This document shows, one piece after another, positions 11,920-34,356 of a stretch of 64,000 nt of DNA. The position numbers and the translations under genes are program-made. The stretch's first letter is position 1, and every line of letters begins with the position of its first letter. Origin of the DNA: Lunularia cruciata (taxonomy: Eukaryota; Streptophyta; Marchantiopsida; Lunulariales; Lunulariaceae); contig OX419758.1 in NCBI GenBank assembly GCA_948567375.1, positions 11,909,001 to 11,973,000 of the forward strand. The letters run 5' to 3'. The notes under the pieces were generated by a model. The model did not search any database, was not told the origin of the DNA, and saw nothing but the letters and a program-made list of their open reading frames with translations.

Positions 11920-11923
11920 TTTT

Positions 11924-11940: not shown

Positions 11941-11960
11941 CCTCTCTAGAAGGCAAGATA

Positions 11961-12131
11961 ATGTTCCGCGTCCAATTCTACATTAGGCAGAAGGAGGCTA
12001 TGAGAGCTCACTTGGAGAGAACATTAGGAGAGGAGAGCGCTGAACTTATGTTAGAGAACCAAGATCCATTTGTATACCCTGTAGTTCATTATGATGTCTT
12101 TGAGGTGATTTTGTACATCTTGTACACATGA
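11961..12131 (+). CDS. Leader ORF-a (56 aa), unknown function
   Basis: First ATG-initiated frame after the primer-binding site, 56 residues. It is open in copies A, B and C with one or two substitutions. Its last 42 residues align without gaps to ORF-b at 13256: 19 identities, including shared MR, TLG, PFV and a terminal YILY. No known domain is recognised. The homology to ORF-b suggests an ancient internal duplication in the leader. It may be a translated small protein or the remnant of a larger upstream gag-like exon. The start at 11961 is chosen because frames extending further upstream lack an ATG. Confidence 0.5.
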   Translation: MFRVQFYIRQKEAMRAHLERTLGEESAELMLENQDPFVYPVVHYDVFEVILYILYT

Positions 12132-12779
12132 GAGGAATTGGAGAGATTGTGTGAGGTGGATTGCAGATTTTGGGGATTAAGGTGATTTTGGGCAAAATCT
12201 CAAGTTTGAGATCTGGACTTGAGATTTCTACACATGATAGCTTGGGTTATCTTTCAGTTAGCACACTTGAAATTATTGTGAGAGCTTCTATGCGCACTGG
12301 GCTAGAATTTTTGAAAGTTGATAGGGTAAAGTGCTCCCGCAACTGCATGCTCTCTGGAAAATTGTACAGAGTCTGCCATTTCTTCAATTTTCAGTGAATT
12401 GTCTGGAAAATTTCCAAGAAAACTCAGTGCATTGTATCCTACCTGCTGCCACAAAAATTAGAGAGAGATCATTTTTGCGCAGTGCGTTATGAGTTTTTGA
12501 AGTGAGGGGGGTGGTTTTTAGACCAAATCTGAAATATGGGTGCTGAATAGAAAGGTGTCTAGGCCAAATGGCTCGATGAAAAGATCTAAAATTTTGCAGG
12601 GAGGGACGCCCTCGAGTTGTGATCAAGTGTGGAAAATTTCAGAGGACTGTGACATATTGGTTGGGAGATTTGAGTGACATTGTGAGGAAGGGTCAATTCT
12701 GCAGAGTGGAGATCTCATGCATGAGAAGTTTGAGATCAACAAAAAGCATGTTTGAGTGTTTAGATTCATCTTTGGGAAC

Positions 12780-13253
12780 ATGGAGGGTCATCAAGAGTGG
12801 AAATTGAGATTATGCAAGGTTCCCCAAGGGTTTGAGGTGATTGTAGGGGTGGATTTGAGGAAAAGAGAGTTTACAATAGAATTTGAAGAGAGTGTTGAGA
12901 GGATCCAAAAACCTACACCACTTGGAGGAAAGAGTGAGTCTAAGTGCTTTCTATGTGGAGAGAAGGGACATAAGGCAAGTTCATGTCCATTAACCTTTGA
13001 GAGCAAGAGATTGAGGGAAAGGAGAGGCTTACTTGACTTGGGTTTGCATGTTGGACCTTCTTCACCAAGATTGGGAGGGAGAAGATCTAAGACCAAGGAG
13101 TTGTGTGAGGTTTGTGGAGTTGAAGGACTTCCAAAAGGACATGAGTGTAGTGGAGTAAAAGCACTTTTGGAAACTTTGGTGAAGGATCTTGGAGAGAGTC
13201 TTAGTACAGCTACAGAAATACTACCACCTTCATCAGCTAGTTCTCAAGATTAG
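12780..13253 (+). CDS. Leader ORF-z (157 aa), zinc-knuckle protein
   Basis: A 157-residue ORF upstream of gag-pol. Residues 56-69 form a classic retroviral zinc knuckle, CFLCGEKGHKASSC (C-x2-C-x4-H-x4-C). Residues 112-126 give a second Cys/His cluster, CEVCGVEGLPKGHEC. The rest is basic and Ser-rich, with an acidic Leu-rich end. This is separate from the zinc knuckle inside gag, so the element encodes two nucleocapsid-like modules. A role in RNA binding or packaging is inferred. The frame is open in A, B and C. Its stop TAG is followed after two bases by the ATG of ORF-b. Some Ogre-type elements also carry an ORF before gag, but I cannot show homology. Confidence 0.65.
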   Translation: MEGHQEWKLRLCKVPQGFEVIVGVDLRKREFTIEFEESVERIQKPTPLGGKSESKCFLCGEKGHKASSCPLTFESKRLRERRGLLDLGLHVGPSSPRLGGRRSKTKELCEVCGVEGLPKGHECSGVKALLETLVKDLGESLSTATEILPPSSASSQD

Positions 13254-13255
13254 TG

Positions 13256-13420
13256 ATGGAGATAATCTTTCAACTTATGGATAAACTATCCATGAGAGTT
13301 AGATTAATATGCACTCTAGGATTTGATGTTGCTATAGAAATCTTGGAGCAACCTGAACCTTTTGTGTTCCCTAGAGTGGATTATTCTCAGATGGTGTTAG
13401 TCATGTATATACTCTATTAG
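13256..13420 (+). CDS. Leader ORF-b (54 aa), paralogue of ORF-a
   Basis: A 54-codon ORF starting two bases after the ORF-z stop (TAG-TG-ATG) and ending in TAG 68 bases before the gag-pol start. It aligns with ORF-a over 42 residues (about 45% identity), with the same ending YILY followed by a stop. It is intact in all three copies. The close stop/start spacing would allow reinitiation after ORF-z. Function unknown. Confidence 0.5.
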   Translation: MEIIFQLMDKLSMRVRLICTLGFDVAIEILEQPEPFVFPRVDYSQMVLVMYILY

Positions 13421-13488
13421 TAATAGAGTGAGAGAAAAGAAAAGAGAAAAAAAAAATTAAGAGAAAAGAAAGATAGTGAGGGGTTAAG

Positions 13489-16400: not shown

Positions 16401-18315
16401 CTTGGGAATGGTTGGGTACTATAGGAGGTTCATCTTCTCATTTTCCAACAAGGCTTATGCATTGACCATCTACATGAAGAAGGGTGTAGATTACATGGTG
16501 ATTTTGGAAGACAAGGAGGCTCTCAAAGCTTTTGAGGAGCTCAAGCAATCCCTTGTTGTAGCTCCAATTCTTGCTAAACCTGATTGGAGTAAGCCTTTCA
16601 TCCTCTACACTGATGCTTCTAATGTAGCTATAGGATGCACTCTTAGTCAATTAGACCAAGATGGGCATGATCATCCAATAGCTTATGCTAGTAGGCAGAT
16701 GGTTTCAGCAGAGAAGAACTACTCTGTCACAGAGAGAGAAGGGTTGGCAGTGATCTTTGGTCTCAAGAAGTTTAGACACTACTTGATTGGAGGGAAAGCC
16801 ACAATTGTCACGGATCACAAGGCTTTGAAGTACATCTTCAACAAGCCTAATGTTGAAGGGAGACTAGCAAGGTGGATGATACTCTTGTCTGAGTATGACT
16901 ACACAATTGAGGATAGGCCAGGAAAGAAACATGCAAATGCTGATTTGTTATCTAGAGCCTATGATCATGATGGAGATGAGCCAGTAGATGATTCCTTCCC
17001 GGATGAGGAGCTCATGACAATCTCAGTCACTCAAGAGATTCCAATGGAGTACAAGGAGATTGTGGATTTTGTGACAAGAGGTAACTATCCAGAAGGGATG
17101 CATGCTAGGGAGAGGAAGGCCCTTGCAGCAAGATCTAGACCTTACACAATGGTGGAGGATATTCTTTTTCACCAAGGAGCAGATGGTCTACTTCGAAGAG
17201 CAGTGGGTAAGGAAGAGTCTATCCTACTCATAAAGGAGTTTCATGAAGGTTTAGTATGTGGAGGACACTTTGCAGGAAAGGTGACTGCTTTCAAGATTCT
17301 AGATGCAGGTTATCATTGGAGAGGGATTTTCAAGGATTGTCTTGATTATTGCAAAACTTGTCATGTTTGTCAAGCTTTTGCTAGAAAGTCTACATCCACT
17401 CCACCACTTAGATCAATTCCATTGCTAGGACCTTTTGAGAAGTGGGGAATTGATTTTGTAGGACCTCTCAATAGAACCCCAAGGAACAATCGGTACATTG
17501 TGGTAGTTACTGATTACCTTACCAAGTGGGTTGAGGCTAGACCATTGAGGGACAAGAATGAAGATGAAGTGGGTAGATTTCTTTATGAACGCATTATCAC
17601 TAGGTTTGGATGCCCTTTGGAGTTGGTTTCTGATAGAGGAGGAGAGTTTACAGGAAGCATTACTACAGCCATGCTACGACATTTCTCTATCACACATAGA
17701 GTAACTACATCCTATAAGCCAAATTCCAATGGCTTGGCAGAGAGAACCAATCAGACCTTGTGCATGATGTTGGCCAAAGATGCAGAAATGGAGGGGGCTA
17801 AACATCATTGGGACAAGAGGATTCATGCAGTTTTGTGGGAGTATAGGACAACCATGAAGACTTCCACTGGATATTCTCCATTCCAATTGGTGTATGGTAT
17901 TGAGTCTACCTTACCTATTCACTTTGATCTTCCTACCTTCCAAAGCATTCATAGAAGATTGAAGAAAGCACAAGGAAGTGATGCAGGGAAGTCAAGGAAG
18001 GATCAACTCATGGAGTTGGAAGAGGCAAGAGCAGTTGCTATGGTTCGAGTGGAGCAAGCCCAAAGGAAACAAAAGGAGAGCTATGACAAGAGGCAAGGCA
18101 AGAAGAAGGTGGAGCCTTTCAAAGAAGGTGATTGGGTAATGTTGTTTGATTCCATTCGATTCAAGAGAGTGCAAAAGAAGTTTTTGCCTAAGTACTTTGG
18201 ACCTTTCATAGTAGAGAAGGTGTGGGGCAATTACACCTATGATCTCAAGGAGTTGGGAGGAAGACACTTTGATAGGATTAACCATGATAAGTTGAAGATG
18301 TACCATAGAAGGTAG
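13489..18315 (+). CDS. gag-pol polyprotein of family A, copy A (1608 aa)
   Basis: A single uninterrupted frame encoding all core proteins. The gag capsid region lies in roughly residues 1-250, followed by the zinc knuckle C282-C285-H290-C295. Protease has active-site D502 in DGG rather than DSG/DTG. Reverse transcriptase covers about 750-980, with catalytic D829 and the FIDD pair D893/D894. RNase H covers about 1035-1160 (LYTDAS...). Integrase has an HHCC zinc site near 1250-1298, D1322, D1382 and E1418 (35 residues between the last two), and a GPF module near 1568. No chromodomain follows. All catalytic residues are present, so this copy may be functional. gag and pol are in one frame, so the gag:pol ratio must be set some other way. 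Confidence 0.95.
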   Translation: MGKLPVFFGKDGEDVEAFVRDFKRACIGNNERRKNEWASLLPDFFEDAALTWYESEYQKRERREGEEESWETLTSALIENFLPDESYERLMSEVTFLKQGDGEKVRVYVERVEKLESRFRIVLRKGGDDVETTMIGIGAMLTKNFVGGLRPQIRSKVRYEKPSSKVEAIKIAIRMEESLEGDESDLVVKEVVHPPQGYKYGGTSDTLVTRVAPQVVVAPILAPPPKDPLQTITEQLADLKINVVQLWEKREVDQNVGRGPRSYGNYPYRGGQPANNFNDRNCFGCGGRGHIQRNCPNSTYHGGRGYEGANRGKEGGSETQVAPNPNKGKEIASIDVVESKYEKGECSNSKGLNLELLAQEKKRARFAEDVHSSQGFTSSKDTPMSTRSTRTSTPSTTKTPRKKLGMEDFLISKQQWNYNVLEDVGSHKANITVGQLIALNPTLRKELRGGLSSTRSKKKKKAKVPVSMGVVDAKPAPWEACEYASKIDVRVNGHNIKDALVDGGSAVNAMSERLMKKLGMIPSRPSTFVVSMANKQQVRPVGVMDKVVVSVMGVQNLMTFQVLKDSSYDLLLGRPWLRAARTTDQWHKGYLRIGPSNHRVTVPVTNTTNTSHSDTPSSNYWESDSEEGASGVDTSMEEETSTEEDESESDSDVYPLCAMDFAPKPEVLKDPDKSPLTLEEVERRLSTLKYGPNVTKEEKVRFEEIFRKFIHVFAFSYKDLKEVTLEEHKIEVESHARPIRQKQRRISPPISLVVKEEIDKLKEAGFIFEVENSEWVSPIVIVKKKNGKLRVCVDYKKLNAVTKKDYYPLPFIDEILEEVAGHERYSFGDGYSGYNQIKIAPEHQQLTTFTTPWGTYAFKVMPFGLCNAPATFQRFMNKVFEPFIGKFVRDFIDDFCVYGSKEEHFEHLIKVLQRLDEANASLNPEKCIFGCEEGLLLGHIISKDGIAVDPEKVRKISDLPFPSSLTKLRQFLGMVGYYRRFIFSFSNKAYALTIYMKKGVDYMVILEDKEALKAFEELKQSLVVAPILAKPDWSKPFILYTDASNVAIGCTLSQLDQDGHDHPIAYASRQMVSAEKNYSVTEREGLAVIFGLKKFRHYLIGGKATIVTDHKALKYIFNKPNVEGRLARWMILLSEYDYTIEDRPGKKHANADLLSRAYDHDGDEPVDDSFPDEELMTISVTQEIPMEYKEIVDFVTRGNYPEGMHARERKALAARSRPYTMVEDILFHQGADGLLRRAVGKEESILLIKEFHEGLVCGGHFAGKVTAFKILDAGYHWRGIFKDCLDYCKTCHVCQAFARKSTSTPPLRSIPLLGPFEKWGIDFVGPLNRTPRNNRYIVVVTDYLTKWVEARPLRDKNEDEVGRFLYERIITRFGCPLELVSDRGGEFTGSITTAMLRHFSITHRVTTSYKPNSNGLAERTNQTLCMMLAKDAEMEGAKHHWDKRIHAVLWEYRTTMKTSTGYSPFQLVYGIESTLPIHFDLPTFQSIHRRLKKAQGSDAGKSRKDQLMELEEARAVAMVRVEQAQRKQKESYDKRQGKKKVEPFKEGDWVMLFDSIRFKRVQKKFLPKYFGPFIVEKVWGNYTYDLKELGGRHFDRINHDKLKMYHRR

Positions 18316-18322
18316 AGAGACC

Positions 18323-18344
18323 TTCACTTTGAGGACAAAGTGAA
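18323..18344 (+). other. Hairpin between gag-pol stop and polypurine tract
   Basis: A perfect 9-bp inverted repeat (TTCACTTTG / CAAAGTGAA) with a 4-base AGGA loop. It is identical in copies B (45372-45393) and C (53231-53252) and in the older fragment F (48928-48949). Possible roles are RNA 3' processing, packaging or plus-strand priming; all are inference. Confidence 0.7.
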
Positions 18345-18351
18345 AACTTAG

Positions 18352-18363
18352 TCCGGGGGTAAA
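18352..18363 (+). other. Polypurine tract region of copy A
   Basis: CCGGGGGTAAA lies directly before the 3' LTR, the usual position of the plus-strand primer. The same sequence precedes the 3' LTRs of B and C. Confidence 0.65.
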
Positions 18364-19042
18364 TGTAACACCCATTTGTGCATGTGTGTGGTATTGTGAT
18401 ATTTAGCTTGGTATTACAAGTACTTAAGAGATATTATTTATATAGAGATAAACGATGGTTCTATATTAGTCATGGTTAGCTAAAGTTAGTCATAGCTAAG
18501 ATAGATGGGACCTTACTTTAGAGGAAGTAGAAAAGATGAGCACCACTATTTTGGATTTTAGTGTATTGACTTGGTATTATTCCTAGGTGTTTGGCTTTGG
18601 GGAAAGAGTTGAGAACTCTTGGGCCCGCAAGCCTTTTTGTTTTGGATTCTTCTTTAGTCCAAGGATAGCCCATGTGAAGGAATCCTTGCTTTAGTGGTTG
18701 GGTCAAGATAAGGGGAATATGCCCATGTGAATGGATATTCCTTTCTACTTTTTGACTTTACTTGACTTTTAGTCTAGTAACTTGAGTTACTACGGTAATT
18801 AGTAACTTTGGTACGTAACTATTTCACAAGTATATAAACAAGGAGTGAGGAGGTACTCATCATCCTTTCATTTGCAACTATCTCTCTCTCATTGAGTTCT
18901 CTAGTGAGCAATGTCTTGAGTCTTGGAGTGTTAGCCTTGGAGGAGTATGATGGAGTTGGGGTTCCTTGCCTTCTTAGTCCATGGTGCGCTACCATAATAG
19001 CCATCAGAGGTTCATCCTGAGTGAGAGACAGGCCGGCTCACA
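18364..19042 (+). repeat. 3' LTR of copy A
   Basis: 679 bp and about 99.7% identical to the 5' LTR. The two differences seen are one G/C in the GATAAA(G/C)GATGG stretch and one G/A in TTAGTGT(G/A)TTGAC. Followed by the GGTC duplication. Confidence 0.94.
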
Positions 19043-19570
19043 GGTCACATCAATGACTGATGCTTTGACCTACACCCAGAGTTACAAAGTGGTAGAGCTA
19101 CTATGGCAGGTAGTAGGGTTGCTCTAGATCATGGAGGACAATGTGATAGAGGTGGTGGTAGAGGATCCACACCTAGTAGGGGTGTAGTACCAACCCTTAA
19201 TAACCAACCCTTCAAATATAGTCATGGCTACTTGCATTGAGCACTTGGAGTAGAGATAAGCTAGCATGGCCATAGCTTAGAGGAGATTAGATTTGAGTGC
19301 TACAGCTTCTACTTCATACGTTGGGTGGTAGAAACGTCTTGGATTTCATGTGCGGAGTAGAATAGGTGGATGCATCTACCATAGTGACTTAGAGTGCAAT
19401 ACGTGCTTTAAGTCTATAAAGCCTAGAGGAGCATCGGTGGAATTGGACCCACAGAGAGGAGAGGCTAGTAGAAAGGTTAGGCTTCCCTAGTCTTTTAAAC
19501 TCTCTATGGCACTATAGACAACATCCATGACTCCTAGACATCCTAGTGCATGTGTGGTAGGTAGTGATGT
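19043..19570 (+). pseudogene. Element E, gag to protease linker
   Basis: Continuation of element E between insertions A and D. All frames are broken. It includes Gly/Arg-rich low-complexity coding near 19130-19200, typical of the sequence around gag zinc knuckles. It ends at 19570, where D inserted into GATGT. Confidence 0.4.
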
Positions 19571-19982
19571 TATAAAAGACCGAAACCGAGGAGAGAAATA
19601 GGAGAATGGAAACTCACATTGGGACACTTGAATGAGGGAAAACTCCGAATGCCTAGCATGAGCTTTGGCTTGGGTATTTATAGGTAGCATACAAGGCCCT
19701 TAAGAAGCTTCTCAAGAAGCTTCCTCAAGCCGCTTTCTTAGAGTGCAAGCCAAGTTAACTAGGAAGCTTCTCAAGAAGCTTCCTTCTAGAAGCCGCCTAC
19801 TTGGCGTGCAAGCTAAGCTAGTTGGAAGCTTCTAGAAGCTACTTACTTAAGGTGCAAGCTAAGCTAACCGGGAAGCTTCCCAAGAAGCTTCCTATATACT
19901 TTTGGAATATTCTAGGCTAATTTGTCTTATGTGCTACTTCGTGAGCCTAACTGACTTCGTCGCTAAACTCCATATTGTTACA
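19571..19982 (-). repeat. 3' LTR of chromovirus D
   Basis: 412 bp. Its terminal TG has become TA (19571-19572). It lacks a 14-bp stretch (one heat-shock-type unit) present in the other LTR. Confidence 0.9.
19825..19837. promoter_or_regulatory. Heat-shock element, 3 units (D 3' LTR)
   Basis: GAAgcTTCtaGAA is a perfect nGAAnnTTCnnGAAn array, the minimal functional heat-shock-factor site. Further inverted GAAgcTTC pairs occur nearby at 19690-19890. Confidence 0.65.
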
Positions 19983-20037
19983 TATTCCCCTGCCGCTAGT
20001 TGGTGATGTCCTCATCGCCAGTGAAGCTTCGAACAAC

Positions 20038-20200
20038 CTAGATGGCCATATGTGCATTGTGGAGGTAAGAAAGAGGTTCCCAGGTGGGATCATGAAGGGG
20101 ATACCCTTTCCAAAGGACCTTGTACTCCGTATGTTGGCGACGGCCTCGTTGAATGTGGCGACGCGCAAGGATACAATCAACTTCGTACTCCTCATGATCA
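20038..20200 (-). pseudogene. Chromodomain at the C-terminus of D pol
   Basis: The minus strand encodes EEYEVDCILARR...YKVLWKGYP...TWEPLSYLHNA and a stop at 20038-20040. The aromatic and W-x-x-Y/WEP pattern is that of retrotransposon chromodomains, which bind methylated histone H3 and guide integration. A stop or frameshift near 20230 separates it from the integrase frame, so this copy is broken. Confidence 0.8.
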
Positions 20201-20232
20201 TTGATAGGGATAGGAATAGGGGGAGGTTGGAC

Positions 20233-21600
20233 TCAAGAGGAAAAGGAAGAGGGGTTAGAAACAAAGGGTTTCAACTTGGAAACATGAAAGACAGGATGAA
20301 TACGCATGTGACAAGGCAAGGCAAGACGATAAGCAACAAGAGAGATAATTTGGGTGATATCAAAGGGTCCTATCCAATTAGGGGCAAGTTTACGAACTTG
20401 GGTATCAAGTGGGAGAGGGAGGTTACTAGAGGATAACATGACTTTATCACTGACTTCGAAGGTGAGATCTTGACGATGGTGGTCCGCATATTGTTTTTGG
20501 TGATTCTGAGCAACAAGGATGTGAGACTTGGCTTGTTGGAGAGATTGGGATATAGTGGTCAAGAATATGGAAGTATGAGGAACCTGAGATGGAGGAGGAG
20601 CAAGAAGAGAATATGGAACAAGCGGATCTTGGCCAAAATTGAGAAAGAAAGGAGAGAATCCGGTGCTTGCTTGTTTGGAATTGTTGTAGGCAAATTCGGC
20701 AGCGGCAAGACATTCATCCTAATTGGTATGGTGGACATTGACAAAGGCACGCAACATATCCTCCAATGTATGATTTGCACGTTCGGTTTGTCCATCAGTT
20801 TGAGGATGATAGGCCGTGGACAAAGCAAGCTTAGTGCCGAGTATCTGAAAGAGTGCTTGCCAAAACTTCCCAATAAAGCAAGGATCACGGTCGGAGATGA
20901 GTACACATGGCATTCCATGATGCTTGAAGACATTGTTGGAGTAGATTTGCGCTAAGGTTGGAGCATCCACGGTATCACAGGTTGGTGCCAAGTGGATTTG
21001 CTTACTAAGCTTATCAACAAACACCACGATGGCGGTGTGTCCTTGTTTTGTCTTTGGCAAGGATGTGATGAGATCCAAGCTCACATGCTCCGAACGAGCT
21101 GATGGAATGGCAAGCGGTTGAAGGAGTCCACCCGGCTTCTGGTTGCTGGCCTTGTTACATTTGTAGCTCTCACACGATCGGACAAATTCTTGAACATCCC
21201 GTGTCATGTTGGGCCACCACCATTGACGTTGGAGGGTACCCAAGGTCTTGTCCACACCCATGTGACCAGCGATGGGTAAATCATGGGCTTCTTGAAGGCG
21301 CACAAGTCAAAGGTCACCTTTGGCTGGAACATAGATCCGGTCCGCATGGAATAGAAGGCCTTCCTTGAAAGAGAAGGTGTTGTACTCCTTGTCACCTGTT
21401 GTTAGTCGACCATGTACCATTTGCAAGAAGGGATCTTGCTGTAGAGCTAACCGAAACTTGTGATGAATCTTGGGATCAATTGACATCATCGTAATTGCTG
21501 CCGCGATGAGAGGAAGAGACTTCAAATCAGGTCGTCGTGATAGAGCATCAAGGATGACATGGAACCGACCTGGTTTGTACTCAAGTTTGATATCGAACAA
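20233..21600 (-). pseudogene. Integrase of chromovirus D
   Basis: Three minus-strand frames give the integrase. 21600-21307 holds the end of RNase H and the linker. 21303-20719 holds the zinc-site end (C-x2-C) and a catalytic core with LDLITSLP, ISDRDPCF and GQTERANHTL (D, D, E). 20562-20233 holds the C-terminal part with IGPF and HPVFHVSKLK. In-frame stops near 21304 and 20715 interrupt what was one frame. Confidence 0.85.
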
Positions 21601-21627
21601 TTGGAGTTGCTCTTCCCATCGATGATG

Positions 21628-22710
21628 TCAACTCTTCATGTGCTCTAGGTGTAAGGTCTGCAACAATGGCTTGTGATCAGTTCGCATGATCACTTGTTTC
21701 CCCAAGAGATAATGCCTCCATACCTTGGTGGTGTATACCATTGCAAGTTGTTCCCGATCTTGAGCAGAGTAATTTCTTTCAGCTGTATTTAGTCGGCGAG
21801 ACACAAAGGCAATAGGATGTAGTCCATCTAGAAATTCTTGTTGCAACACAGCTCCAATTGCAAAGTTAGAAGCATCAAAATCAACCACACAAGGTAGTTG
21901 AGGATCATATGGTTGAAGAATGGGTCTTGAAGACACCATATGCTTTCACTTCTGGAATGCTTCTTCATGCTTGGTGGTCCATTGGAAGCTCGAGTTCTTT
22001 CCCAAGAGGTCAGTCAATGGTGCAGCCACGTGAGCATAATAGTGGATGAACCATCGGTAAAAACTGGTCAATCCATTGAATGCTCGTACTTTGGTAGCAT
22101 CCTTCGGGGTAGGCCAATCAGTAATGGCCTTGATCTTCTCTTCTTCCATCTTGATCCCCTCTGATGAGATCTTATGACCCAAGAAGGTAACCTCCTTCTG
22201 CCAAAAAGCACACTTTGACTTCTTGCAGTAAAATTTCCATTGTCGCAGTCGTCTTAGGACTTCTTGCACATGATTCCTGTGTTCTGGCTCTGTCCTACTA
22301 TAGATTAAGATATCATCTAAGAACACTACCACGGACTGATCCAATAGTCCCTCCAACACCCGATGCATCTGATCTATGAAGACAGCTGGAGCATTAGTGA
22401 GTCCAAAAGGTAGAACTCTCCACTCAAAATGTCCATACCTTGTGCGAAAGGTAGTCTTTTGCACGTCCTCACCTTCAATAGGAATTTGCCAATAGCCGCT
22501 ACAAAGATCTAGCTTGGAAAAGTAGCGTGCTCCACTTAACTGATCAAGCAGGTCATCAATCCGAGGCAAGGGATATGCATTCTTCACGGTTTGCTTATTG
22601 CGCCCACGGTAATCAATATAGAAACAAAGTCCTCCATCCTTCTTTGGAACAAATAGTACCGGTGCTCCCCACGGAGAGGTACTATGTCGTATGAAATCCT
22701 TCTCCAACAA
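21628..22710 (-). pseudogene. Reverse transcriptase and RNase H of chromovirus D
   Basis: 22710-21946 encodes RT with SKLDLCSGYWQI, FGLTNAPAVF and the catalytic FLDDILIYS. 21939-21628 encodes RNase H with VDFDASNFAIGAVL and YSAQDREQLA. Single stop codons near 22708 and 21943 interrupt the frame. Sequence is otherwise well conserved, so decay is moderate, in line with the LTR divergence. Confidence 0.88.
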
Positions 22711-23583
22711 CTATTTAAGTGTTGTTCGCAACTCTTCCAACTCCTTTGGTGAGAGCCGATAGATTGGTCTACTCACTGGAGTACTCCGTGGCAATAACTC
22801 GATCTTGAAGGGCATACCTCGATCAGAGGGTAATCCCTTTGGCAGATCATCCAGAAACACATCTGCAAACTCCTGAACTATCTGATCAATGGTTGCTTGA
22901 TGCGGCACCTGGCCCTCCTCAGATTGTTCTTGTGCAATCGGCTTGATCCACACCGCGAACACAGAGTTATCTTCCTCCAAAGCTTGCTCTATGGCTGCTT
23001 CATTAACAAATTTCCCTTCTAGGGACTCATCTCTCTTCCAAGCTTGCTCCATGGTTGCCTTCTTGGCAAACTTCCCATCTTGGGACTCATCTCCCTTCCA
23101 GATTTGCTCTATGGCTACCTTCTCAACAAACTTCCCATCTTGGGACTGACTATTGTTAGGTGTCTTACTCAGAGGTGCCAGACAACCTAATCGGAAATTC
23201 CTACCTTGGTGTTGTACTTGAATTTGACGTTCGGTCCAATCAAATTGAACCTTATGACGTTCAAGCCAAGGTAGACCCAGAATGATATCATAGTGTAGAG
23301 GTGCCACTACAAACCTCATACACTCCAAATACTCCTTCCCAATCTTGAAGGTAACAGGATGCGAGGTGCGGAGTGCAGAACCTTTTCTACCATCCGCCAT
23401 CATCAAACTACTTCCAATCACTGGCTTGATAGGAATACCCAATTCCTTTGCTACTTGCATAGATATGCAATTGTCTGAACTTCCAGAATCAACCAAAATC
23501 CCACAACCCCGATTAGATATCATACCTTGCAAGTGAAGCAAACTTGCATAGGTCGAGCTTTCAATCCCATTGGAACTAATCAA
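22711..23583 (-). pseudogene. Protease region of chromovirus D
   Basis: Minus-strand frame with ILVDSGSSDNCIS (active-site DSG) and the flap-side motif DIILGLPWL, as in plant chromoviruses. The linker towards RT contains three imperfect tandem repeats of about 20 residues (consensus DGKFVEKAAIEQAWK-DES, at about 22990-23150), an unusual expansion between protease and RT. Confidence 0.85.
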
Positions 23584-23679
23584 GCTCCTAGTTGGCTGCT
23601 TGAAATCTCCTATTGGGATTCTTTGTTTCCCTGATCATTCTTTTCCACAAACTCCATCTGGGCAACTTGTTGAGGTCAC

Positions 23680-24360
23680 CCATTCCTAAGTGGACATTCA
23701 GCAATGCGATGTCTAACTTGGCAACAATAAAAGCAACCTCTATTTTGTCGTAATCTTTCTCTATCTGCTATGCCAAGTGGTCTTCGTTGGATAGCATCAA
23801 TCTCCATTGGTACCGGTTCTTCCACTCATGGTACTGGTAGGTTTTGTGTAGGTCGAGGTCGAGACCAAGTTGTCGCAACTAAGGAATCAAAACGCTCAGC
23901 CAATTGCATGGCTTCTTCTACGTTTTGTGGCTGTTGCATGGTCACCTCCAATCTGGTTCGTGACTTCAATCCTCGCACAAATCAATCCAAAACTTCACCT
24001 TCTTGGATATCTGGAATTTGCATGATGGCATTTTGAAATTGTGTGATATAGCTTCTCACTGAACCAATCTGCCTCAACTCCGCCAATTTATCTTGTGCAG
24101 CTCGGGTGGCATTTATAGTTTGAAATTGACCAAGTATTGCATCCTTGAATTCTGCCCATGTCAAAATCGGTTTAACAATTTGTCGTTCAGCTCTTTCTAC
24201 TGGGAATCGCCACCAAAGTTTTGCCACGCCATCCAACTGGCTAGAAGCCAAGAGAATTTGTTTCTGCTCGTCTTGAATATTGGTGGCTTCAAAGTAATGT
24301 TCATAGTCAAACACAAAATTCTCCACTATGCTTGGAACATTCTTGCCTTCAAACACCTTG
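23680..24360 (-). pseudogene. gag of chromovirus D
   Basis: 24356-23982 encodes a capsid-type segment (KLWWRFPVERAE, WAEFKDAILGQF, the usual retrotransposon gag signature). About 23745-23690 encodes the zinc knuckle CFYCCQVRHRIAEC (C-x2-C-x4-H-x4-C). Frames are broken between the two. The start of gag, between 24360 and the primer site at 24767, is decayed. Confidence 0.8.
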
Positions 24361-24766
24361 GGTTTCAGAAATCGAATGCGATCTTCTCCATCTCAAACTG
24401 GCGCTCTGTCTATCTGTTCTCGTCGTTGCTGGTCTCGTTCATCCAACAATCAAGTAAGATGCTTGATTTGTTGTTGCATTGCAAGTATACATCTGGTATT
24501 GCCGCCATTGCTACTCCCCTAATCCACTACCCTCAATTTTTCTAGCTGATTAACACATAGATACAACACGTCCACCGTTCTCCATAAGTTACAACTGGAA
24601 GTATCAAGGGTTCCTCTAACACGGTGATCATATGTAGAAAATCCTGCCCAAAGCGTGAGGTGATGAATTGTGTGAAATGATGCTTTGGTAATATCTGGAC
24701 ATGAAAGTCCCAATGGTTTGGCGGAAGTGGATTTGGTGGTCCATAAATTCCATCCATCCCATTCCT

Positions 24767-24778
24767 GCTCTGATACCA
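24767..24778 (-). other. Primer-binding site of D, initiator Met tRNA
   Basis: On the minus strand TGGTATCAGAGC, the standard complement of plant initiator tRNA-Met, starts one base inside the 5' LTR boundary. It confirms element orientation. Confidence 0.92.
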
Positions 24779-24779
24779 A

Positions 24780-25205
24780 TGTAAAAGACCAAAACCGAGG
24801 AGAGAAATAAGAGAATGGAAACTCATATTGGGACACTTGAATGAGGGAAAACTCCGCATGCCTAGCATGAGCTTTGGCTTTGGTATTTATAGGTAGCATA
24901 CAAGGCCCTTGAGAAGCTTCTCAAGAAGCTTCCTCAAGCCGCTTTCTTAGAGTGCAAGCCAAGTTAACTAAGAAGCTTCTCAAGAAGCTTCCTTCTAGAA
25001 GCCGCCTACTTGGCGTGCAAGCTAAGCTAGTTGGAAGCTTCTAGAAGCTTCCTTCTAGAAGCTACTTACTTAAGGTGCAAGCTAAGCTAACCAGGAAGCT
25101 TCCCAAGAAGCTTCCTATATACTTTTGGAATATTCTAGGCTAATTTGTCTTATGTGCTACTTCGTGAGCCTAACTGACTTCGTCGCTAAACTCCATATTG
25201 TTACA
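24780..25205 (-). repeat. 5' LTR of chromovirus D
   Basis: 426 bp, TG...CA ended. In element orientation the order is a heat-shock-element-rich stretch (about 25110-24910), then a TATA box (CTATAAATA near 24885), then the transcribed part. This is a complete promoter layout. Confidence 0.92.
25034..25060. promoter_or_regulatory. Heat-shock element array, 4 perfect units plus 2 (D 5' LTR)
   Basis: GAAgcTTCtaGAAgcTTC (25034-25051) is four contiguous alternating units with exact spacing. After one extra base, TTCtaGAA follows (25053-25060). Additional GAAgcTTC pairs occur at about 24912-24932, 24981-25000 and 25095-25115. The array lies about 150 bp upstream of the TATA box in the element's direction. 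Confidence 0.75.
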
Positions 25206-26319
25206 GATGTGGTGCATGATGGACTAGTCAACCACCTATTACTACAAAAATTGAGTCTAGTACAATGGTGGGAGCGGCTCAATTGATTATGCGCTTTCTA
25301 TTATTCTCAACCAATGATATGTTTACCTTGGGAGTTGATCCAACCCGAGTGTTCTGATTGGCTGCCAGGCTTTGTGAGAGTAGAGAGAAAATGGTCCCTA
25401 CTACTGGAGTAGAGGTGCTTGATAATGGAGCTGACTTGGTTGAGGAGCAAGGGATTTGCTTAATGATCAATGATTTAGGCAGGCAACAGAGGCTAGATTA
25501 GAGGAGTTATCAACTAGACTGGCCTTTGGGCAAGCATGATTTACATCAGGGGTTGTTTTATTAGATAAAAAATGGGGGATTTTTTTTGGTGGTACCTTTA
25601 GGGAAGGTCTATACGCCATAGAGTGTCTTACTAGACTTTGGTGCACAACCCTTTATGTTGAGAAGGCCGTAGTTGTTGGTCTAGAGTTGTGGAAGATTGA
25701 TATAAAGAGGTGTTCATTTTAGATCCATACATCTCTAGGTGGTGGTTCTACATAGTGCATCACATGTGGAGAGCTTGTTATTTAGATTCAACTCAATCAT
25801 CCAATCATCCGACTAATAGCTTTGTGCTGAGAGCTCATGCCATTGCAACTATAGTTGAGTCATATGATGTGTTAGTTGGGAGAGTAGTGTTATACTCCAT
25901 GGGTTTCAATATTGACTATTGGGAGGAGACAACCTCCTATAGATGAGGTTGGCAGTCAGGTGAGGGACAAGTATGTCACCTACCAGTATGCTTCAATAAT
26001 GGTAGTCTTGGCTCACTATAGTCCAAGACCATGGCGTGATTAGTTTTAGCGGTCAATGGTGTTGTTACTTAGCTAGGTGATTTATTGGAGAGGAACACCC
26101 ACGCAAAGGATACGCTAGTACCAAAGGGGATCACTCTGATTTGGAGTATGAGTGGGATCATTCCATCCACCTTGGATGTTCCATTGTGGAGTTTAGAGGA
26201 GGCATTGCAACAACATGCAGATCAGTTGGTGTAGTAGGCTAAGAGTGGAGCCTTTGTAATACCAAAAGATCAGTGTGAGGATGAGCTTCTACAATTGATT
26301 ACCTTGACACGTTTGGATC
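25206..26319 (+). pseudogene. Retroviral protease region of element E
   Basis: Near 25620 one frame reads SVLLDFGAQPFMLRRP, corresponding to the active-site loop of a retropepsin with DSG changed to DFG. Near 25850-25945 another reads ESYDVLVGRVVLYSMGF and then DYWEETTSYR, the second half of the same fold. Many stops interrupt it. The 26000-26320 stretch is a decayed linker leading into the methyltransferase. Only a relic. Confidence 0.65.
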
Positions 26320-27192
26320 CCACACTCATTGCTTGGCAATATCCAATAGAGGGAGTATGTCTATTAGAGTTGTTTGGGATAAACATTGGACTAAGTGTGG
26401 TACTATAGGCGGATATACAAGTATAAAGGTACTTGTATGTGGAGAGAGATGAGATTGTTAGTCAAGTCTCCCTACATCATGTGGCATACTTGGCCTATCG
26501 GTATCCTGAGTTGTTCCCAATGTCATGAGTCAAGGGTCACTGGAGGACCCTTCTAGCAAACATTTCCTTACGGGGGTGTAGGATTTGGAGAGACATGGTC
26601 CCATTCATTTGGTGATTTTTGGATGGTCATGTTATGGACATACACATGCTGGCCAAGGTTTGGGTCTTTAGGATCCTTGTTCTGGTGTCTTTTGGGAGAT
26701 GTTACAAATACTATGACATCTTAAGGTTCATCTAGTCCATTTCTCCAACATACATTTTGGAGAATATCCTTTTGATGGGTGATTCTTGCACTCAAGTGGT
26801 GGCAAGTACACATCAGGTCCATTCTTGGATAGGACCTATCATGTTGCTAGATGCAGCCTGAGTGGGATCACAGGCTCATCATCTTCATCTTTGGTGGAAA
26901 AACCTCTTACCTACAGAGGTTCTATAGTATGCGTATGATATGATTCAACCACTAAACCACATCATTGTGTGATGAAATCTTGGATGTTGGGCGTCAATCT
27001 CAAACAATGGTAGTGATTGATAGGTCACCTATGATAGTGATGAACCAAGTTGGATAGCCTAGAGCCACTTCTCTCACACTTATGAGTTTCCCAAGCTCAC
27101 ATGCTTTTCAAGAGGGAGGTCTTGGATTGGTTTGAGACTCATAGTTACAACAGTTGGTGGAGCCCAACGCTGATGAGAGAGAGAGAGAGCGG
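26320..27192 (+). pseudogene. DNMT3-like DNA cytosine methyltransferase domain of E, first part
   Basis: Conserved C5-methyltransferase motifs appear in order. Motif I (SAM binding): LLELFGINIGL at about 26361. Motif II: YLYVERDEIVSQV. Motif IV: HLVIFGWSCYGHTHAG with the catalytic Cys codon at 26630-26632, in a shifted frame and with the usual Pro replaced by Ser. Motif VI: TYILENILL at 26751. Motif VIII: LLDAA-VGSQAHHLHLWWKNL at about 26845-26900; this DA..V...AH..R.FW.NL pattern is typical of DNMT3. Motif IX start: LVEPNADERER at about 27155. Stops and two frameshifts make it non-functional. The domain sits between protease and RT of element E. The insertion at 27193 splits it. Confidence 0.75.
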
Positions 27193-27514
27193 TGTCGTCG
27201 GGAAAATAGCCCACGTGTACCCTTGAGGCTTTTGGTGTGATAAATTTTCTTTTCTCTTTTATTTGTTGTAAGGAACAGGGATTTATGATAATACATCTCG
27301 GGTATGGTTTTGCTATCTTGTTTTGGGAGAAAGTGAGGAGACAGAGAAGGGCTGAGGGTTTTCAGAAAATGCCAAAAGATTTTGAGATGGAAGTTTGCAA
27401 AAGACTTCGAGAGGGAAGTTTGCAGAGGATTTAGAGAGAAGTAGCAGAGATTTTCGGGAGAAGAAAGGAGTAGGGTTTTTTCGGACAGGAGGAAGGATGG
27501 ACAGAAAGTTTTTT

Positions 27515-27970
27515 GAGTTGGACAGGAGGGCTTGAGAGTGCAAGGAAAAAAATTTCTCGAGAACTGAAGGGTGGAAGAGAGGAACAATCAGGGCCAGGAT
27601 TTTGGAGTTGGACAGGAGGGCTTGAGAGTGCAGGGGAGAAAATTTCTCGAGAACTGAAGGGTGGAAGAGAGGAACAATCAGGGCCAGGATTTTTGGAGTT
27701 GGACAGGAGGGCTTGAGAGTGCAGGGAAAAAAATTTCTTGAGAACTGAAGGGTGGAAGAGAGGAACAATCACGGCCAGGATTTTTGAGTTGGACAGGAGG
27801 GCTTGAGAGTGCAGGGGAGAAAATTTCTCGAGAACTGAAGGGTGGAAGAGAGGAACAATCAGGGCCAGGATTTTTGGAGTTGGACAGGAGGGCTTGAGAG
27901 TGCAGGGGAGAAAATTTCTCGAGAACTGAAGGGTGGAAGAGAGGAACAATCAGGGCCAGGATTTTTGAGT
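27515..27970. repeat. Tandem array 1, about 5 copies of a ~90-bp unit
   Basis: Units begin GAGTTGGACAGGAGGGCTTG at 27515, 27605, 27696, 27786 and 27877, with a partial one at 27967. The period is 90-91 bp and copies are about 95% alike. Confidence 0.93.
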
Positions 27971-27984
27971 TGGACAGGAGGGGT

Positions 27985-29110
27985 GAGAGTGCAGGGCTGT
28001 GCTTGGACCAGGAGAGGAATTCTGAAATGTGTGAGTGCAGGGCTGTGCTTGGACCAGGAGAGGAATTCTCAAAATGTGAGAGTGCAGGGCTGTGCTTGGA
28101 CCAGGAGAGGAATTTTCGAAATGTGAGAGTGCAGGGCTGTGCTTGGACCAGGAGAGGAATTTTGAAATGTGAGAGTGCAGGGCTGTGCTTGGACCAGGAG
28201 AGGAATTTTCGAAATGTGAGAGTGCAGGTTGTGCTTGGACCAGGAGAGAAATTTCGAAATGTGAGAGTGCAGGGCTGTGCTTGGACCAAGAGAGGAATTT
28301 TTGAAATGTGAGAGTGCAGGGCTGTGCTTGGACCAGGAGAGAAATTTTGAAATGTGAGAGTGCAGGGCTGTGCTTGGACCACGAGAGGAATTTTCAAAAT
28401 GTGAGAGTGCAGGGCTTTGCTTGGACCAGGAGAGGAATTTCAAAATGTGAGAGTGCAGGGCTGTGCTTGGACCAGGAGAGCAATTTCGAAATGTGAGAGT
28501 GCAGGGTTGTGCTTGGACCAGGAGAGCAATTTCAAAATGTGAGAGTGCAGGCTGTGTTTGGACCAGGAGAGGAATTCTGAAATGTGAGAGTGCAGGGCTG
28601 TGCTTGGACCAGGAGAGGAATTTTTGAAAGGTGAGAGTGCAGGGCTGTGCTTGGACCAGGAGAGGAATTTTTGAAATGTGAGAGTGCAGGGCTGTGCTTG
28701 GACCAGTAGAGGAATTTGGAAATGTGAGAGTGCAGGGCTGTGCTTGGAGCAGGAGAGAAATTTCGAAATGTGAGAGTGCAGGGCTGTGTTTGGACCAGGA
28801 GAGGAATTCTGAAATGTGAGAGTGCAGGGCTGTGCTTGGACCAAGAGAGGAATTCTGAAATGTGAGAGTGGAGGGCTGTGCTTGGACCAGGAGAGGAATT
28901 TTTGAAATGTGAGAGTGCAGGCTGTGCTTGGACCAGGAGAGGAAATTTTGAAATGTGAGAGTGCAAGGCTGTGCTTGGACCAGGAGAGGAATTTTCGAAA
29001 TGTGGGAGTGCAGGGCTGTGCTTGGACCAGGAGAAGAATTTCGAAATGTGAGAGTGCAGGGCTGTGCTTGGACCAATAGAGAAATTTTGAAATGTGAGAG
29101 TGCAAGGCTG
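27985..29110. repeat. Tandem array 2, about 24 copies of a 46-47-bp unit
   Basis: Unit of the form GTGCAGGGCTGTGCTTGGAC then CAGGAGAGGAATTTT-GAAATGTGAGA. Starts are spaced 46-47 bp (for example 28035, 28082, 28129, 28175). Copies vary by one or two bases. Minisatellite. Confidence 0.95.
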
Positions 29111-29640
29111 TTTTGGACCAGGACAGAAATTTCGAAATGTGAAGGGAGTCTTGAAGGGCTGAAGGCTTTTGGAGATGCATGAGGGCTGTGTTTTGGACCA
29201 GGACAGAAATTTTGAAATGTGAAGGGAGTTTTGAAGGGCTGAAGGCTTTTGGAGATGCCTTAGGACAGTGTTTTGGACCAAGATAGGAATTTTTGAAATG
29301 TGAAAGGAGTCTTGAAGGCTGAAGGCTTTTGGAGATGCCTTAGGACTGTGTTTTGGACCAGGAGAGAACTTTCCAAAATGTGAGAGGAGTCTTGAAGGGC
29401 TGAAGGCTTTTGGAGATGCATGAGGGCTGTGTTTTGGACCAGGACAGAAATTTTGAAATGTGAAGGGAGTTTTGAAGGGCTGAAAGCTTTTGGAGATGCC
29501 TTAGGACTGTGTTTTGGACCAGGATAGGAATTTTCGAAATGTGAAAGGAGTCTTGAAGGGCTGAAGGCTTTTGGAGATGCCTTAGGACTGTGTTTTGGAC
29601 CAAGATAGGAATTTTCGAAATGTGAAATGAGTCTTGGAAG
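29111..29640. repeat. Tandem array 3, about 6.5 copies of an 80-81-bp unit
   Basis: The anchor TTTTGGACCA occurs at 29111, 29191, 29271, 29351, 29432, 29512 and 29593. The unit contains the TTGGACCAGGA...GAAATGTGA core of array 2 plus a GGAGTCTTGAAGGGCTGAAG segment, so array 3 probably arose from array 2. Confidence 0.93.
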
Positions 29641-30035
29641 CAGATTTGTGTTATGAATTGTGACTAGAGTTGAGGAAACTCCATTCTAGGATCTCTCAGT
29701 CTGGTCCAGGTGAAAAGCATAATCAAATGATCTGAGTGCCGGATTTATGTTCAGTTAGATCACTCAGTTGTTGTTTATTTTATTTTATCAAAGGGCCACC
29801 GGACCTAGGTCTATGAACTGCCAGATCCCAAACCATAGCTTGAACCTGACGAGAAAATAGGATATGAGACCAAGCAGAAGTAGAAATGATAACACTAGCC
29901 TCGCATGACAAGATTGGTTTTACAAAAGTCAAGGATAAAACAAAACCTTCAGGGTGAGTCAACCTCAGGAAAACTAAGCACAAGCAGCCATGTGCTCGGC
30001 GCACTCTCAAGACCAAACGTTCCCCACGACAGCGG

Positions 30036-30190
30036 GTGATGGGTTTTTGCCCCTATATTACCGTTGTTTCTGTATTGTTAGAGGCATCTAGCCGTCAAGT
30101 GTTAGGTTAGGCTATGCACCTGAATTATTTTACTTGGATAGTGAGCCTTGGCTTAGCAAAGCAACATAGGATGCACTTGACAAGGATCAC
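30036..30190 (+). pseudogene. DNMT3-like domain of E, second part (motifs IX-X)
   Basis: After the insertion and its GCGG duplication the coding sequence resumes with VMGFCPYITVV, which continues the ERER of the first part into the (R)-x-x-GFP-type motif. Then comes RQVLG-AMHLNYFTWIVS, corresponding to the C-terminal motif X (asparagine/glycine-rich SAM-site helix). This shows that the methyltransferase once extended to its normal C-terminus. Confidence 0.65.
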
Positions 30191-31299
30191 CACTCAGACA
30201 CTTGTGAGTTGTGTGCCTATTGAGATGATTCAGGCACATGATGGGGATGATAGATCGAGTAGATAGGGTATTCTTGGGACACAGCCCGTGGCTTTTAGGG
30301 AGAGTGGTCTACTTGGATTACACCCTTGGTCTACTTGGGATCCAGCTAGAGGACATATGGAGCTTGTAGCCAAAGTGAAGGGAGTTTTTCACACTGAGGT
30401 TGGGAGCATGACACTATTGCTCCCAAGGGCCTAGTGTAATAGCTAGTCCGTATGTCTTCCACTCCTAAAATAGTTACAAAGGATACTTGGGAGCTAAATT
30501 TTGGACCCAAGCTTACACGAGAGGAAAGATGGGGAGTTTGGAGGTTCATAGGAAGCTATTTGAGTTGGTTTGCCTTTAATATGAAGGATTTTGGTGCTCT
30601 AAAGTGATTTACTATTCAGATTAAGCAACTAGCAATATACCAATTTTCTGACATCCCTATTGAGATAGTGACATGGAGAGAGCATTGATTTAGAGCCGGA
30701 GTAGAGATCTTTTTGAGGCTAGTTTGGTGGAGATTTCACATGGAGAGTATGCATCAACTACAATGATGCTGCCCAAGAAGGATATGCATGGCAACTACAC
30801 AGATAGGCAGATGCATGGAGATTACCATCCTATCAACCAACAAACTATGGCTAATTGGTATACCATGCCTACATTGGAGGAGATCTTTGATGCAATTGGG
30901 CATGCAAAGGTCTTTAGCACTTTGGATCTTCAAGCAGGATATCATCAGTTGCTGATCAAAGTGTGGGATAAGTCCAAGATATCATTTTGGGTTATTGATC
31001 CTCACGATAAGGATATGTTATATCATTGGAAGTTCTTACCATTTGGGGTAAAGAACACTCTCTGAGTTCCAAAGGGTCGTAGACATGATCTTAGCTAGAT
31101 TGGATTTTGCTTAGTGTTTTATTGATGATATTTTGGTCTATAGCATTACTATGGAGGAGCATGAGAGACATTTGTTGGAGGTGTTTGAGAGATTGAGATC
31201 TCATGGACTCAAATTAGATCATGGGAAGTGTAGGTTCTTCCATGAGCAGGTTGAGTATTTAGGTCACACTTAGAGGACTTGGTGTTCAACAAGCTAAGG
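30191..31299 (+). pseudogene. Reverse transcriptase of element E
   Basis: 30724-31065 reads LPKKDMHGNYTDRQMHGDYH, then PINQQT, VFSTLDLQAGYHQL and KFLPFGVKN, the N-terminal half of a Ty3/gypsy RT. The catalytic CFIDDILVYS lies at about 31115-31145, with CRFFHEQVEYLGH after it. A frame change and stops near 31065-31115 break the frame. The linker before 30700 is poorly conserved. Confidence 0.85.
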
Positions 31300-31925
31300 T
31301 GGAGGCTATTGCACATATTCTTCAACCTATAGATGTTAGTAGAGTGCGAGCATTCCTTAGGTTGGTAAACTTCTATCACAGTTATGTTAGAGGATTTAGT
31401 GCCATTGCCAAAGCCTTGACAAAGCTGAAAATACTTACACAAGAGTGGTGTTGGGGAGATGAGCAGGACAGAGCTTTGGTAGAGCTTAATGAGAGGTTGG
31501 CATCTACTCCTATTTTGAGGAGACCAATCAGAGGAAAACCATTTCAAGTTCACTTTGATTGGAGTATGTTGGACCTTGGAGCAAAGCTCACCCAACATGA
31601 TGATGAGGGGAAGGAGTTTCTGGTGGCCTATGCTAGTCACTCCAACAATTTAGCAAAGGCAAAGTATAGTTCAAAAGAGGGAGAATGCTTGGTAGTTGTA
31701 TGAGCACTAGCACATTTTTGCATTACCTATTTGGTAACCCCTTTACTCTCATCATTGATCATCATCCATTGAAGTAGTTGATAGAACATGACAAGCCTTT
31801 CAGGAAGCTTGCATGATGGACTCTCATTTTACAAGAGTATGATGTCATAGTTATTCATAAACCTAGAGTGGTGAACTATGATGCAAATGGGTTGAGTAGA
31901 AACCCATGTCCAAGCTAAGAAGATT
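31300..31925 (+). pseudogene. RNase H of element E
   Basis: 31299-31703 gives the tether VRAFLRLVNFYHSYVRGFS and an RNase H start with FQVHFDWSMLDLGAKLTQHD (the catalytic Asp of TDAS-type motifs is kept as FDWS). It then gives AYASHSNNLAKAKYSSKEGE. It continues in other frames to about 31920 (DHHPLK, NYDANGLSR). Decayed. Confidence 0.83.
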
Positions 31926-33200
31926 AGATTAGAGCATGTTGGCATGGCAAGACAGATGAGGAGATGATGTGAGGTTGGCATGCATTTTCCTTTCTCAATA
32001 TATTTTTTAAGGCTTTGGTGGTATCTCTCCAAGTGCATATAGGAGGAGTTATTGAGGCTTCACAGATCAAAAGAGTGGAGATAGTGGTACAATTCAACAA
32101 GATATTCATGATAATGTCTTAGTGATAGAATATCTTTGAATTGGTGTTGTGGGTAGTACAGTTGGGGCCAAGGAGAGAAACCATGTTCTTTAGCAAGCCT
32201 GATGGTTCAAATTGGAGGGCAGACACCTTCTTTGTGTATGGGAGGATGGTAGAGGGAGAGTAGTACCACTTCCATCTTAGAGACCACAGTTGGTCCGTCA
32301 TGTTCATGAGGAGCTAGGACATTTTAGAGTAAAGCATACATATAGTTTACTCCTCAATCATTTTTGGTGGCACAGTATGCAAACTAATGTATAGTAGCTT
32401 GTTGCAAGATGTGTGGTTTTGGATCAAGTTAGAGCATCATTTAATGCTCCTATGCCATAGTTACACCCATTATCTACTATGGGATTATTGTTGGATTTTG
32501 GACTTTGTTGGACCTTTACCATTGATTGTGAGACATCATTGGTACATTTTGGTGATGGTGGAGCACTTCTCCAAGTGGATTGAGTTGGTATCACTTCTTG
32601 ACAAGTCTAGTGAAAGGATGGTTTACTCATTCTTGGATTGGCTTCTAAGTCATTTTGGTGCACCAATTGAGGTTTTGACTAATCAAGGTATAAAGTTCTT
32701 GAAGGAGTTTCAAGCCTTGTGTGACAAGAGTTTGATTGATCATTGTACTACCTCCTAAGATCACCTTGAGGTAGATGGTTAAGCAGAGAGAATGGTTCAG
32801 ACAATGAAGAGAGGATTGCAAAAGTATAGTTTGTAGAGAGGCCACTTGGGAGATTGGGATCTCCAACTACCTTGGTTGGCCATGGGCCATTGGTTAAGCC
32901 GATAAGCCTCCCCAACATCCTCCTCTCCTTACCTTCTACTCTATAGATGAGATCCAGATTTACATGTAGTCATTCATCAAGATGCTACTATAGTGTTGGA
33001 CTTGGATGATCCAAATGTATGGATGAGTGCATGTTCTCAATGGGCATAGATCTTTCAGAGATTGATACCAATGGCCTTTGAGAACTTGGTGATTTCTCAA
33101 CTTAGAATACCTTATGCTATGCTACCATTTTAGTAGGATATTATATACTCTCTATCCATCAATTTCATTTATTTGACTCTATATATCTATAACAAATAGC
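31926..33200 (+). pseudogene. Integrase of element E
   Basis: The zinc-site remnants VRHVHEELGHFRVKHTYSLL (about 32290) and ARCVVLDQVR (about 32405) precede a catalytic core. In that core ILDFVGPLPL carries the first Asp, LTNQGIKFL replaces the second Asp-containing SD(Q/R)G with TN, and the third region near 32770 (VDG-AERMVQTM) keeps the Glu. The C-terminal part at 32850-33130 (LQLPWLAMGHWL, VLDLDDPNVWM) is broken by many stops. The second Asp is lost, so even apart from stops it would be inactive. Confidence 0.82.
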
Positions 33201-33211: not shown

Positions 33212-33538
33212 TTGATGTTTCTACGAGCTGCATTTATCTTGAGAGTGGGTGAGGTTTTTCCATTTGGGGTCCTTGTGTTGGAAGGATGTTATGAAGTTAT
33301 TTGGAAGAATCATGTGCACAATTGTGCACCATGCCACCTTCTAAACATTGATGGTACTATGGATCCAAGCTTAACATTTGTACATGTAGGCTTACAATGT
33401 ATGTTATGTAGCTCTTTTGGTGGAGTTGCTACTATATTAGAGTGTCATAACTGTTTGAGAGGATGGCATATGGCATGTATGACTTCTCCCCTCATGGTGG
33501 TTTCTCAAGGACAGTGGTTATGTCATAGATGTACTTGA
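33212..33538 (+). pseudogene. PHD-finger protein segment at the end of E pol
   Basis: An open frame of 108 codons following integrase. Codons at 33398-33532 encode a textbook C4HC3 PHD finger: C-x2-C-x11-C-x2-C-x4-H-x2-C-x14-C-x2-C, with the conserved Trp two residues before the penultimate Cys (QWLC) and a Trp just before the His (GWH). All eight zinc ligands are present and the frame ends in TGA right after the domain. PHD fingers read histone H3 tails. In chromoviruses this C-terminal position is taken by a chromodomain, so a targeting role is a reasonable inference. The upstream part (NCAPCHLLNIDGTMDP) is shared with E2. The polyprotein as a whole is broken upstream. Confidence 0.82.
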
Positions 33539-33709: not shown

Positions 33710-34356
33710 TGTGGCACTTTAGAGTCCATGTATGACTTATGTGTGAGTTGTGCTTCTATAGTGTGTGATGTTGACAACAATGTATGTTGTGTAGCAATGT
33801 ATATATGCAAGACAACTATCATGCCATTTGTAGCATCCCACCTAGATTGCTCAAACTTGGAGTAATAGTGTTGGTAGTCAAGAGTATTTTGGTAGTTACT
33901 CATAGACTACTTGTTGATGGTCAGATTTTGTGTTCAGTGTATTGACTACATGGTAGGACCCACCGTCACTTAGCACCATTCACACCTGTTGGATGTGCCA
34001 TCAGTGAGACCATTAAGGTTGGAGACCATGGGGTATACTTTTGAAGTGCAGCTCCAAAGAGCTCACTTCTTTGATGTTGAGCCTTCAAGTTCATAGCTAT
34101 GGTGGACAGAGGCCGGCAAGCGTCACCTAGATTCTCTTAGCTCTAGTGGATGTGGCTTGATTGTAATCAATACCCAATTATTGGCAGATTATTGAGTGAT
34201 AGATGAAGTACTGATCTAATTGATTGTGATTCAAGTTGTGTAAAATTTTTTATTAGTATGGTAATTTAGAGTCCATGTATGACTTATGCATGAGTTATGC
34301 TTATATAGTGTGTAATGTTAACAAGAATGTATGTTGTGTAGCAATGTATATATGCA
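33710..34356 (+). repeat. 3' LTR of element E
   Basis: Starts TGTGGCACTTTAGAG directly after the polypurine tract. It matches 7405-7745 in its middle and E2's LTR (inverted) along its length. The first ~95 bp recur at the far end (from about 34266), so the outer boundary, placed at TATATATGCA, is not certain. Confidence 0.72.

Follow-up and report, generated by a model that had tools for sequence, protein, structure and literature searches.

Element E and its methyltransferase

A stretch of 64,000 nucleotides from Lunularia cruciata (Marchantiopsida; contig OX419758.1, positions 11,909,001 to 11,973,000 of the forward strand), here called the window and numbered from its first letter, contains the remains of a retrotransposon that we term element E. 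E, now dead, almost certainly belongs to a Ty3/gypsy family with the gene order Gag-protease-methyltransferase (MTase), then reverse transcriptase (RT)-RNase H-integrase-PHD. Its MTase is a DNMT3-like C5-MTase, broken by stops and frameshifts, whose region of motifs I to IX lies at 26322..27177 (+) by motif reading, tblastn, profile and shuffles. An initial annotation of the window had placed C5-MTase motifs at this site, and a three-frame reading finds them there: motif I (CLLELFG) at 26358-26378; motif IV (GWSC; mostly GW[PE]C in the family) at 26621..26632 (+), with the catalytic cysteine still encoded; motif VI (ENI) at 26760-26768; and motif VIII at 26850-26906. The reading of 26322-27177 meets twelve stops and three frame switches, so this copy is dead, as the same annotation had it. 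The C-terminal end of the enzyme (motif X region) is found beyond a later insert, at 30033..30170 (+), by tblastn and by positions 278-321 of a profile built from the MTases of relatives (30021-30152, block E 3.9e-6).

The window copy is so decayed that direct searches with it are negative. Pfam gives no MTase family at E≤10 for six frame pieces, or for a read-through and four pieces; no MTase is present among the PDB matches; and none came from a single-frame protein search of 545 candidates. These negatives are what a chance motif match or an unrelated coding remnant would produce. However, the read-through, a translation of 26322-27177 that replaces stops and frame switches by X, has matches at E≤10 to 14 proteins among 1984 scored, 12 of them with a precomputed PF00145 assignment. 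The best match is from Marchantia polymorpha (5.2e-93, 54% identity), and others include Calypogeia fissa and Sphagnum troendelagicum. The Marchantia protein P0004, listed as Mp_4g09160, is one of the relatives with a complete MTase. Compared by tblastn with the raw window and thus without the read-through, it yields linked matches in the protease-MTase region (25480-27174) with a joint E of 1e-95, and its residues 1156-1265 match 30027-30407 at 3.4e-17. Among phages, tblastn returned 89 records at E≤10; within the best 20 of these 89, the top rows (4e-4) are mostly annotated as cytosine or DNA methyltransferases.

The relatives' MTase profile was also run over 642 single-frame blocks covering the whole window in six frames, with X at stops. 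At E≤1 only 26349-27186 and 30021-30152 match, in five collinear pieces (profile positions 3-77, 81-131, 133-210, 204-282 and, beyond the insert, 278-321; block E 7.5e-39 to 6e-6). In 500 dinucleotide shuffles of 26320-27192 the best high-scoring segment pair reached 27.3 bits, versus 63.5 to 151 bits in the real DNA (four query domains). On the tblastn matches to relatives, the shuffles and the profile scan, a chance match was rejected, and its probability is negligible. The profile match on which the initial annotation had staked its claim is thus absent in Pfam for the dead copy and present with the relatives' profile; in addition, nine of ten relatives scanned pass the PF00145 cut-off (P0050 fails).

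The protease-RT-RNase H-integrase order with gypsy-type domains is found in E by Pfam, tblastn and the architectures of relatives. Upstream, tblastn revealed gag pieces missing from the initial annotation: a gag remnant at 10335..11197 (+; P0004 residues 43-325, E 2e-9 and 1.9e-26) and a Gag-to-protease linker remnant at 19046..19574 (+; P0001 residues 357-512, E 4.9e-14). The broken protease region and protease-MTase linker occupy 25238..26321 (+), where P0004 matches by tblastn from residue 508 on and Pfam finds no protease family. Downstream of the MTase lie a broken RT at 30488..31270 (+; tblastn with P0005; Pfam RVT_1 E 0.0018 at 30694-31065, below the curated cut-off), RNase H at 31263..31945 (+; RT_RNaseH_2 2.4e-17 on 31263-31703, and tblastn) and the zinc-binding and core parts of integrase at 32065..32833 (+; rve 2.2e-9 on 32333-32758, and tblastn). 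A PHD finger, also absent from the initial annotation, ends Pol at 33398..33532 (+; Pfam PHD 1.1e-5, and alignment). One candidate pair of long terminal repeats (LTRs) of 337 bp, with provisional boundaries, consists of a putative 5' LTR relic at 7408..7743 (+) and a putative 3' LTR segment at 33908..34244 (+), which self-comparison aligns at 82.8% identity; both assignments are tentative. A second, 3'-only copy of E with the integrase and PHD region lies at 46089..48210 (-) and is 82% identical to 32060-34164.

Relatives, enzyme class and constraint

Scoring in the protein searches for relatives was confined to the 7988 candidates, about 703-2236 residues long, that had the most words in common. 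The resulting 67 proteins comprise 15 from Marchantia, one each from Calypogeia, Sphagnum fallax, Monoraphidium and a Spirochaetia metagenome-assembled genome (probably a stray), and 48 without an organism label. No Klebsormidium or vascular-plant name occurs among them, which means little because no more than those word-sharing candidates were scored. In the tree, E sits inside a bryophyte clade of 14 rows, three lacking an organism label, that has 100/100 support. Its nearest kin are elements of liverworts and Sphagnum, which points to a bryophyte host; the designation "vascular-plant-type" in the initial annotation finds no support.

Protease precedes the MTase in 39 of 68 relatives (bryophyte proteins plus a set without organism label), and six of these 39 continue into RT within one predicted protein. 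Copies of this kind had been named as a test by the initial annotation, and its placement of a DNMT3-like MTase between the protease and RT of a gypsy element is supported by profile, fold and relatives' architecture. A second arrangement, seen in 27 of the 68, has the MTase after RNase H or directly before integrase: 16, some of them truncated, start at RT or RNase H and extend to PHD, eight begin in the MTase and three stop before PHD. None of these 27 bears a bryophyte name, and one of them, P0062, comes from Monoraphidium neglectum, a green alga. The order MTase-RT-integrase-PHD occurs in P0065 and P0066, whose MTases are very divergent. The trees are compatible with, and do not prove, one capture and a later relocation of the MTase.

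Relatives with a complete MTase, meaning a full domain in a predicted protein, are predicted in liverworts (Marchantia, Calypogeia) and among metagenome proteins. The Sphagnum models P0009 and P0037 are gapped in the MTase domain, as are several Marchantia models. Complete predicted frames among the relatives from Marchantia polymorpha, a plant in standard laboratory use, point to bryophytes as carriers of element-borne MTases; the benefit that a DNA methyltransferase brings to a retrotransposon thereby becomes a testable question. Transposable elements of early land plants accordingly seem to be equipped with epigenetic tools of their own.

By sequence, the family's MTase is DNMT3-like and unpermuted, with conserved active-site residues. 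DNMT3 is the closest of the solved MTases to the relatives' profile. Of 49 full domains, 48 retain the catalytic cysteine of motif IV (P0006 is without that stretch), and all 49 the Glu-Asn of motif VI. DRM2, the plant de novo C5-MTase related to DNMT3, scores much lower with the profile. DRM enzymes have a rearranged order, motifs VI-X before I-IV, whereas motif I is first and motif X last in both the window and the relatives. The same comparison bears on the idea that the domain works on RNA or is a non-catalytic nucleic-acid binder in packaging or reverse transcription. RNA methylation has been raised for SymbioLINE-Dnmt in the available text of de Mendoza et al. (PMC5890265), but DNMT2, the tRNA enzyme, is far down the list of solved MTases (E about 0.004 and weaker), and the conserved catalytic residues argue against a non-catalytic role. 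We consider these roles quite unlikely.

In ten proteins selected from the 16 with the RT-MTase-integrase-PHD order, median identity is 0.43 for the MTase, 0.47 for RT-RNase H, 0.50 for integrase and 0.44 for PHD; it is 0.41 for the stretch that separates integrase from PHD, and the linkers flanking the MTase have 0.19 and 0.22. The MTase is conserved to about the same degree as RT and integrase. This constraint would fit equally well an enzyme acting in trans that methylates and silences competing or older copies as a kind of copy-number control, since enzyme shed from particles could get to any chromatin. However, the location of the MTase, next to protease or within Pol, speaks for action inside the particle or where integration takes place, and targeting to other copies is not known. 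A role in trans is unlikely.

The PHD finger and the proposed role of the methyltransferase

The PHD finger of E lies in one open frame, scores 25.8 bits against the Pfam cut-off of 24 and retains its zinc ligands in the alignment; the same region of the second copy is matched by tblastn at 46731-46952 (-). Integrase is reached by 29 of the 68 relatives, and 26 of these 29 have a PHD. The other three, P0015, P0037 and P0039, end in or just after integrase. The bryophyte representatives in this set of 29 are P0015 and P0037, so a PHD in bryophyte-type elements is so far seen only in the two copies of the window. The PDB entries nearest to a PHD profile of eight rows, one from the window, are KMT2D, KMT2C, CHD4 and KDM5 proteins, with WSTF, DPF3, KAT6A, PHF21A, BAZ2 and UHRF1 further down (best 60 of 72 matches). 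Several of these proteins bind histone H3 unmodified at lysine 4 (H3K4). From this likeness we infer that the element PHD is a reader of the unmodified-H3K4 type.

Chromoviruses, gypsy elements with an integrase chromodomain, likewise have a histone-reader module at the integrase C-terminus; unlike E, they have a chromodomain instead of PHD, and no MTase. Host DNMT3 of animals and moss shares the unpermuted catalytic domain, and that of animals also joins the MTase with a PHD-like ADD reader, but these host genes have no Gag, protease, RT or integrase attached.

With the PHD as partner of the MTase, a specific reader-writer mechanism suggests itself. The element protease would free the MTase inside the particle, and the integrase-PHD module would steer the cDNA to nucleosomes with unmethylated H3K4. 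The MTase would add 5-methylcytosine de novo to the cDNA or new insertion of its own element, so that a new insert would arrive in quiet chromatin already methylated. Such an insert may do less harm to the host and meet weaker selection, and it could be re-expressed once methylation is reprogrammed. Self-marking of this kind is the likeliest role for the MTase, ranking above trans-silencing, RNA or structural functions and host-directed action, and is nevertheless a tentative assignment that falls short of an even chance. The anatomy of E and this mechanism, taken jointly, come close to an even chance.

The precedent for E is KnitGypsy-Dnmt3 of Klebsormidium nitens (de Mendoza et al. 2018, PMC5890265, from the text available). 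In this gypsy LTR element, too, the Pol frame includes a DNMT3-related MTase, for which conserved key residues and a Ka/Ks under 0.2 are reported; it differs from E in its charophyte alga host and in repeats termed DIRS-like. The dinoflagellate SymbioLINE-Dnmt and SymbioDIRS-Dnmt3 are likewise retrotransposon-borne DNMTs, but on a LINE or DIRS backbone, and the available sections of that paper treat the Klebsormidium MTase as acquired independently. "PHD" and "Marchantia" are absent from its main text, figures and supplements aside. In the portions available of other papers, transposon methylases are stated not to occur in land plants such as tracheophytes (PMC6338049), DNMT3 in streptophyte and dinoflagellate retrotransposons is mentioned with citation of PMC5890265 (PMC12344493), and element-borne DNMTs go unmentioned (PMC6453930 and PMC9516144). 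The main text of a plant LTR element survey (PMC6317226) has no occurrence of methyltransferase, methylase, PHD, Marchantia or liverwort. Searches of the open-licence literature, supplements aside, listed no paper whose title or abstract deals with a bryophyte gypsy element with a DNMT or with MTase and PHD in one element.

Five host DNMTs are listed for Marchantia, namely MET, CMTa/b and DRMa/b, in the accessible part of Schmid et al. 2018 (PMC5784723). The same part reports that mature sporophytes gain CHH methylation while host DNMT expression stays at the gametophyte level. This would suit an element MTase that supports or perturbs the host methylome, for instance by CH methylation in stages that host enzymes do not explain. 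However, the argument is circumstantial, and the host list was based on Arabidopsis genes, so that a host DNMT3 could have been missed; host-directed action is distinctly improbable. Self-marking can also be extended into a broader picture that we regard as doubtful. E would belong to an ancient gypsy lineage, from green algae to bryophytes, with a matched writer (the DNMT3-like MTase), reader (the unmodified-H3K4 PHD) and integrase, each insert choosing and then marking its own chromatin. The writer would have been relocated within Pol at least once, and in Marchantia, where the published list of host enzymes includes no DNMT3, such elements might be the sole source of DNMT3-type activity.

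Nested insertions and neighbouring elements

Four later insertions interrupt E, as seen by tblastn and self-comparison. Three were delimited by self-comparison: a solo LTR of a young gypsy family at 9671..10334, a younger gypsy element at 11238..19047 (+), and a second gypsy element on the opposite strand at 19573..25208 (-). The fourth, which splits the MTase, is a repeat-rich piece of about 2.85 kb at 27178..30032. Its terminal inverted repeats, seen by eye, are imperfect and about 15 bp long, and it contains tandem arrays of 90-, 46- and 80-bp units; it is perhaps a non-autonomous DNA transposon.

The young gypsy family is present in three copies about 99% identical, at 11238-19047, 38287-46096 and 52531-59698. 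Two contain an open frame of 1611 amino acids, and in the third some 0.64 kb is missing near 53.7 kb. A separate frame of 165 amino acids with a CCHC-like knuckle, seen by eye, lies upstream in all three. Older members of the family, at roughly 86-93% identity, are the solo LTR within E, a partial LTR at 37623-38082 and a 3' fragment at 48208-49129. A 136-amino-acid frame at 60661-61071 (-) resembles what we take to be the pre-protease region of plant retroelements. CpG is depleted window-wide, with an observed/expected ratio of 0.22; within E the ratio lies at 0.08-0.22, within the second copy of E at 0.24, for the young gypsy at 0.14-0.15 and for nested gypsy element D at 0.51.
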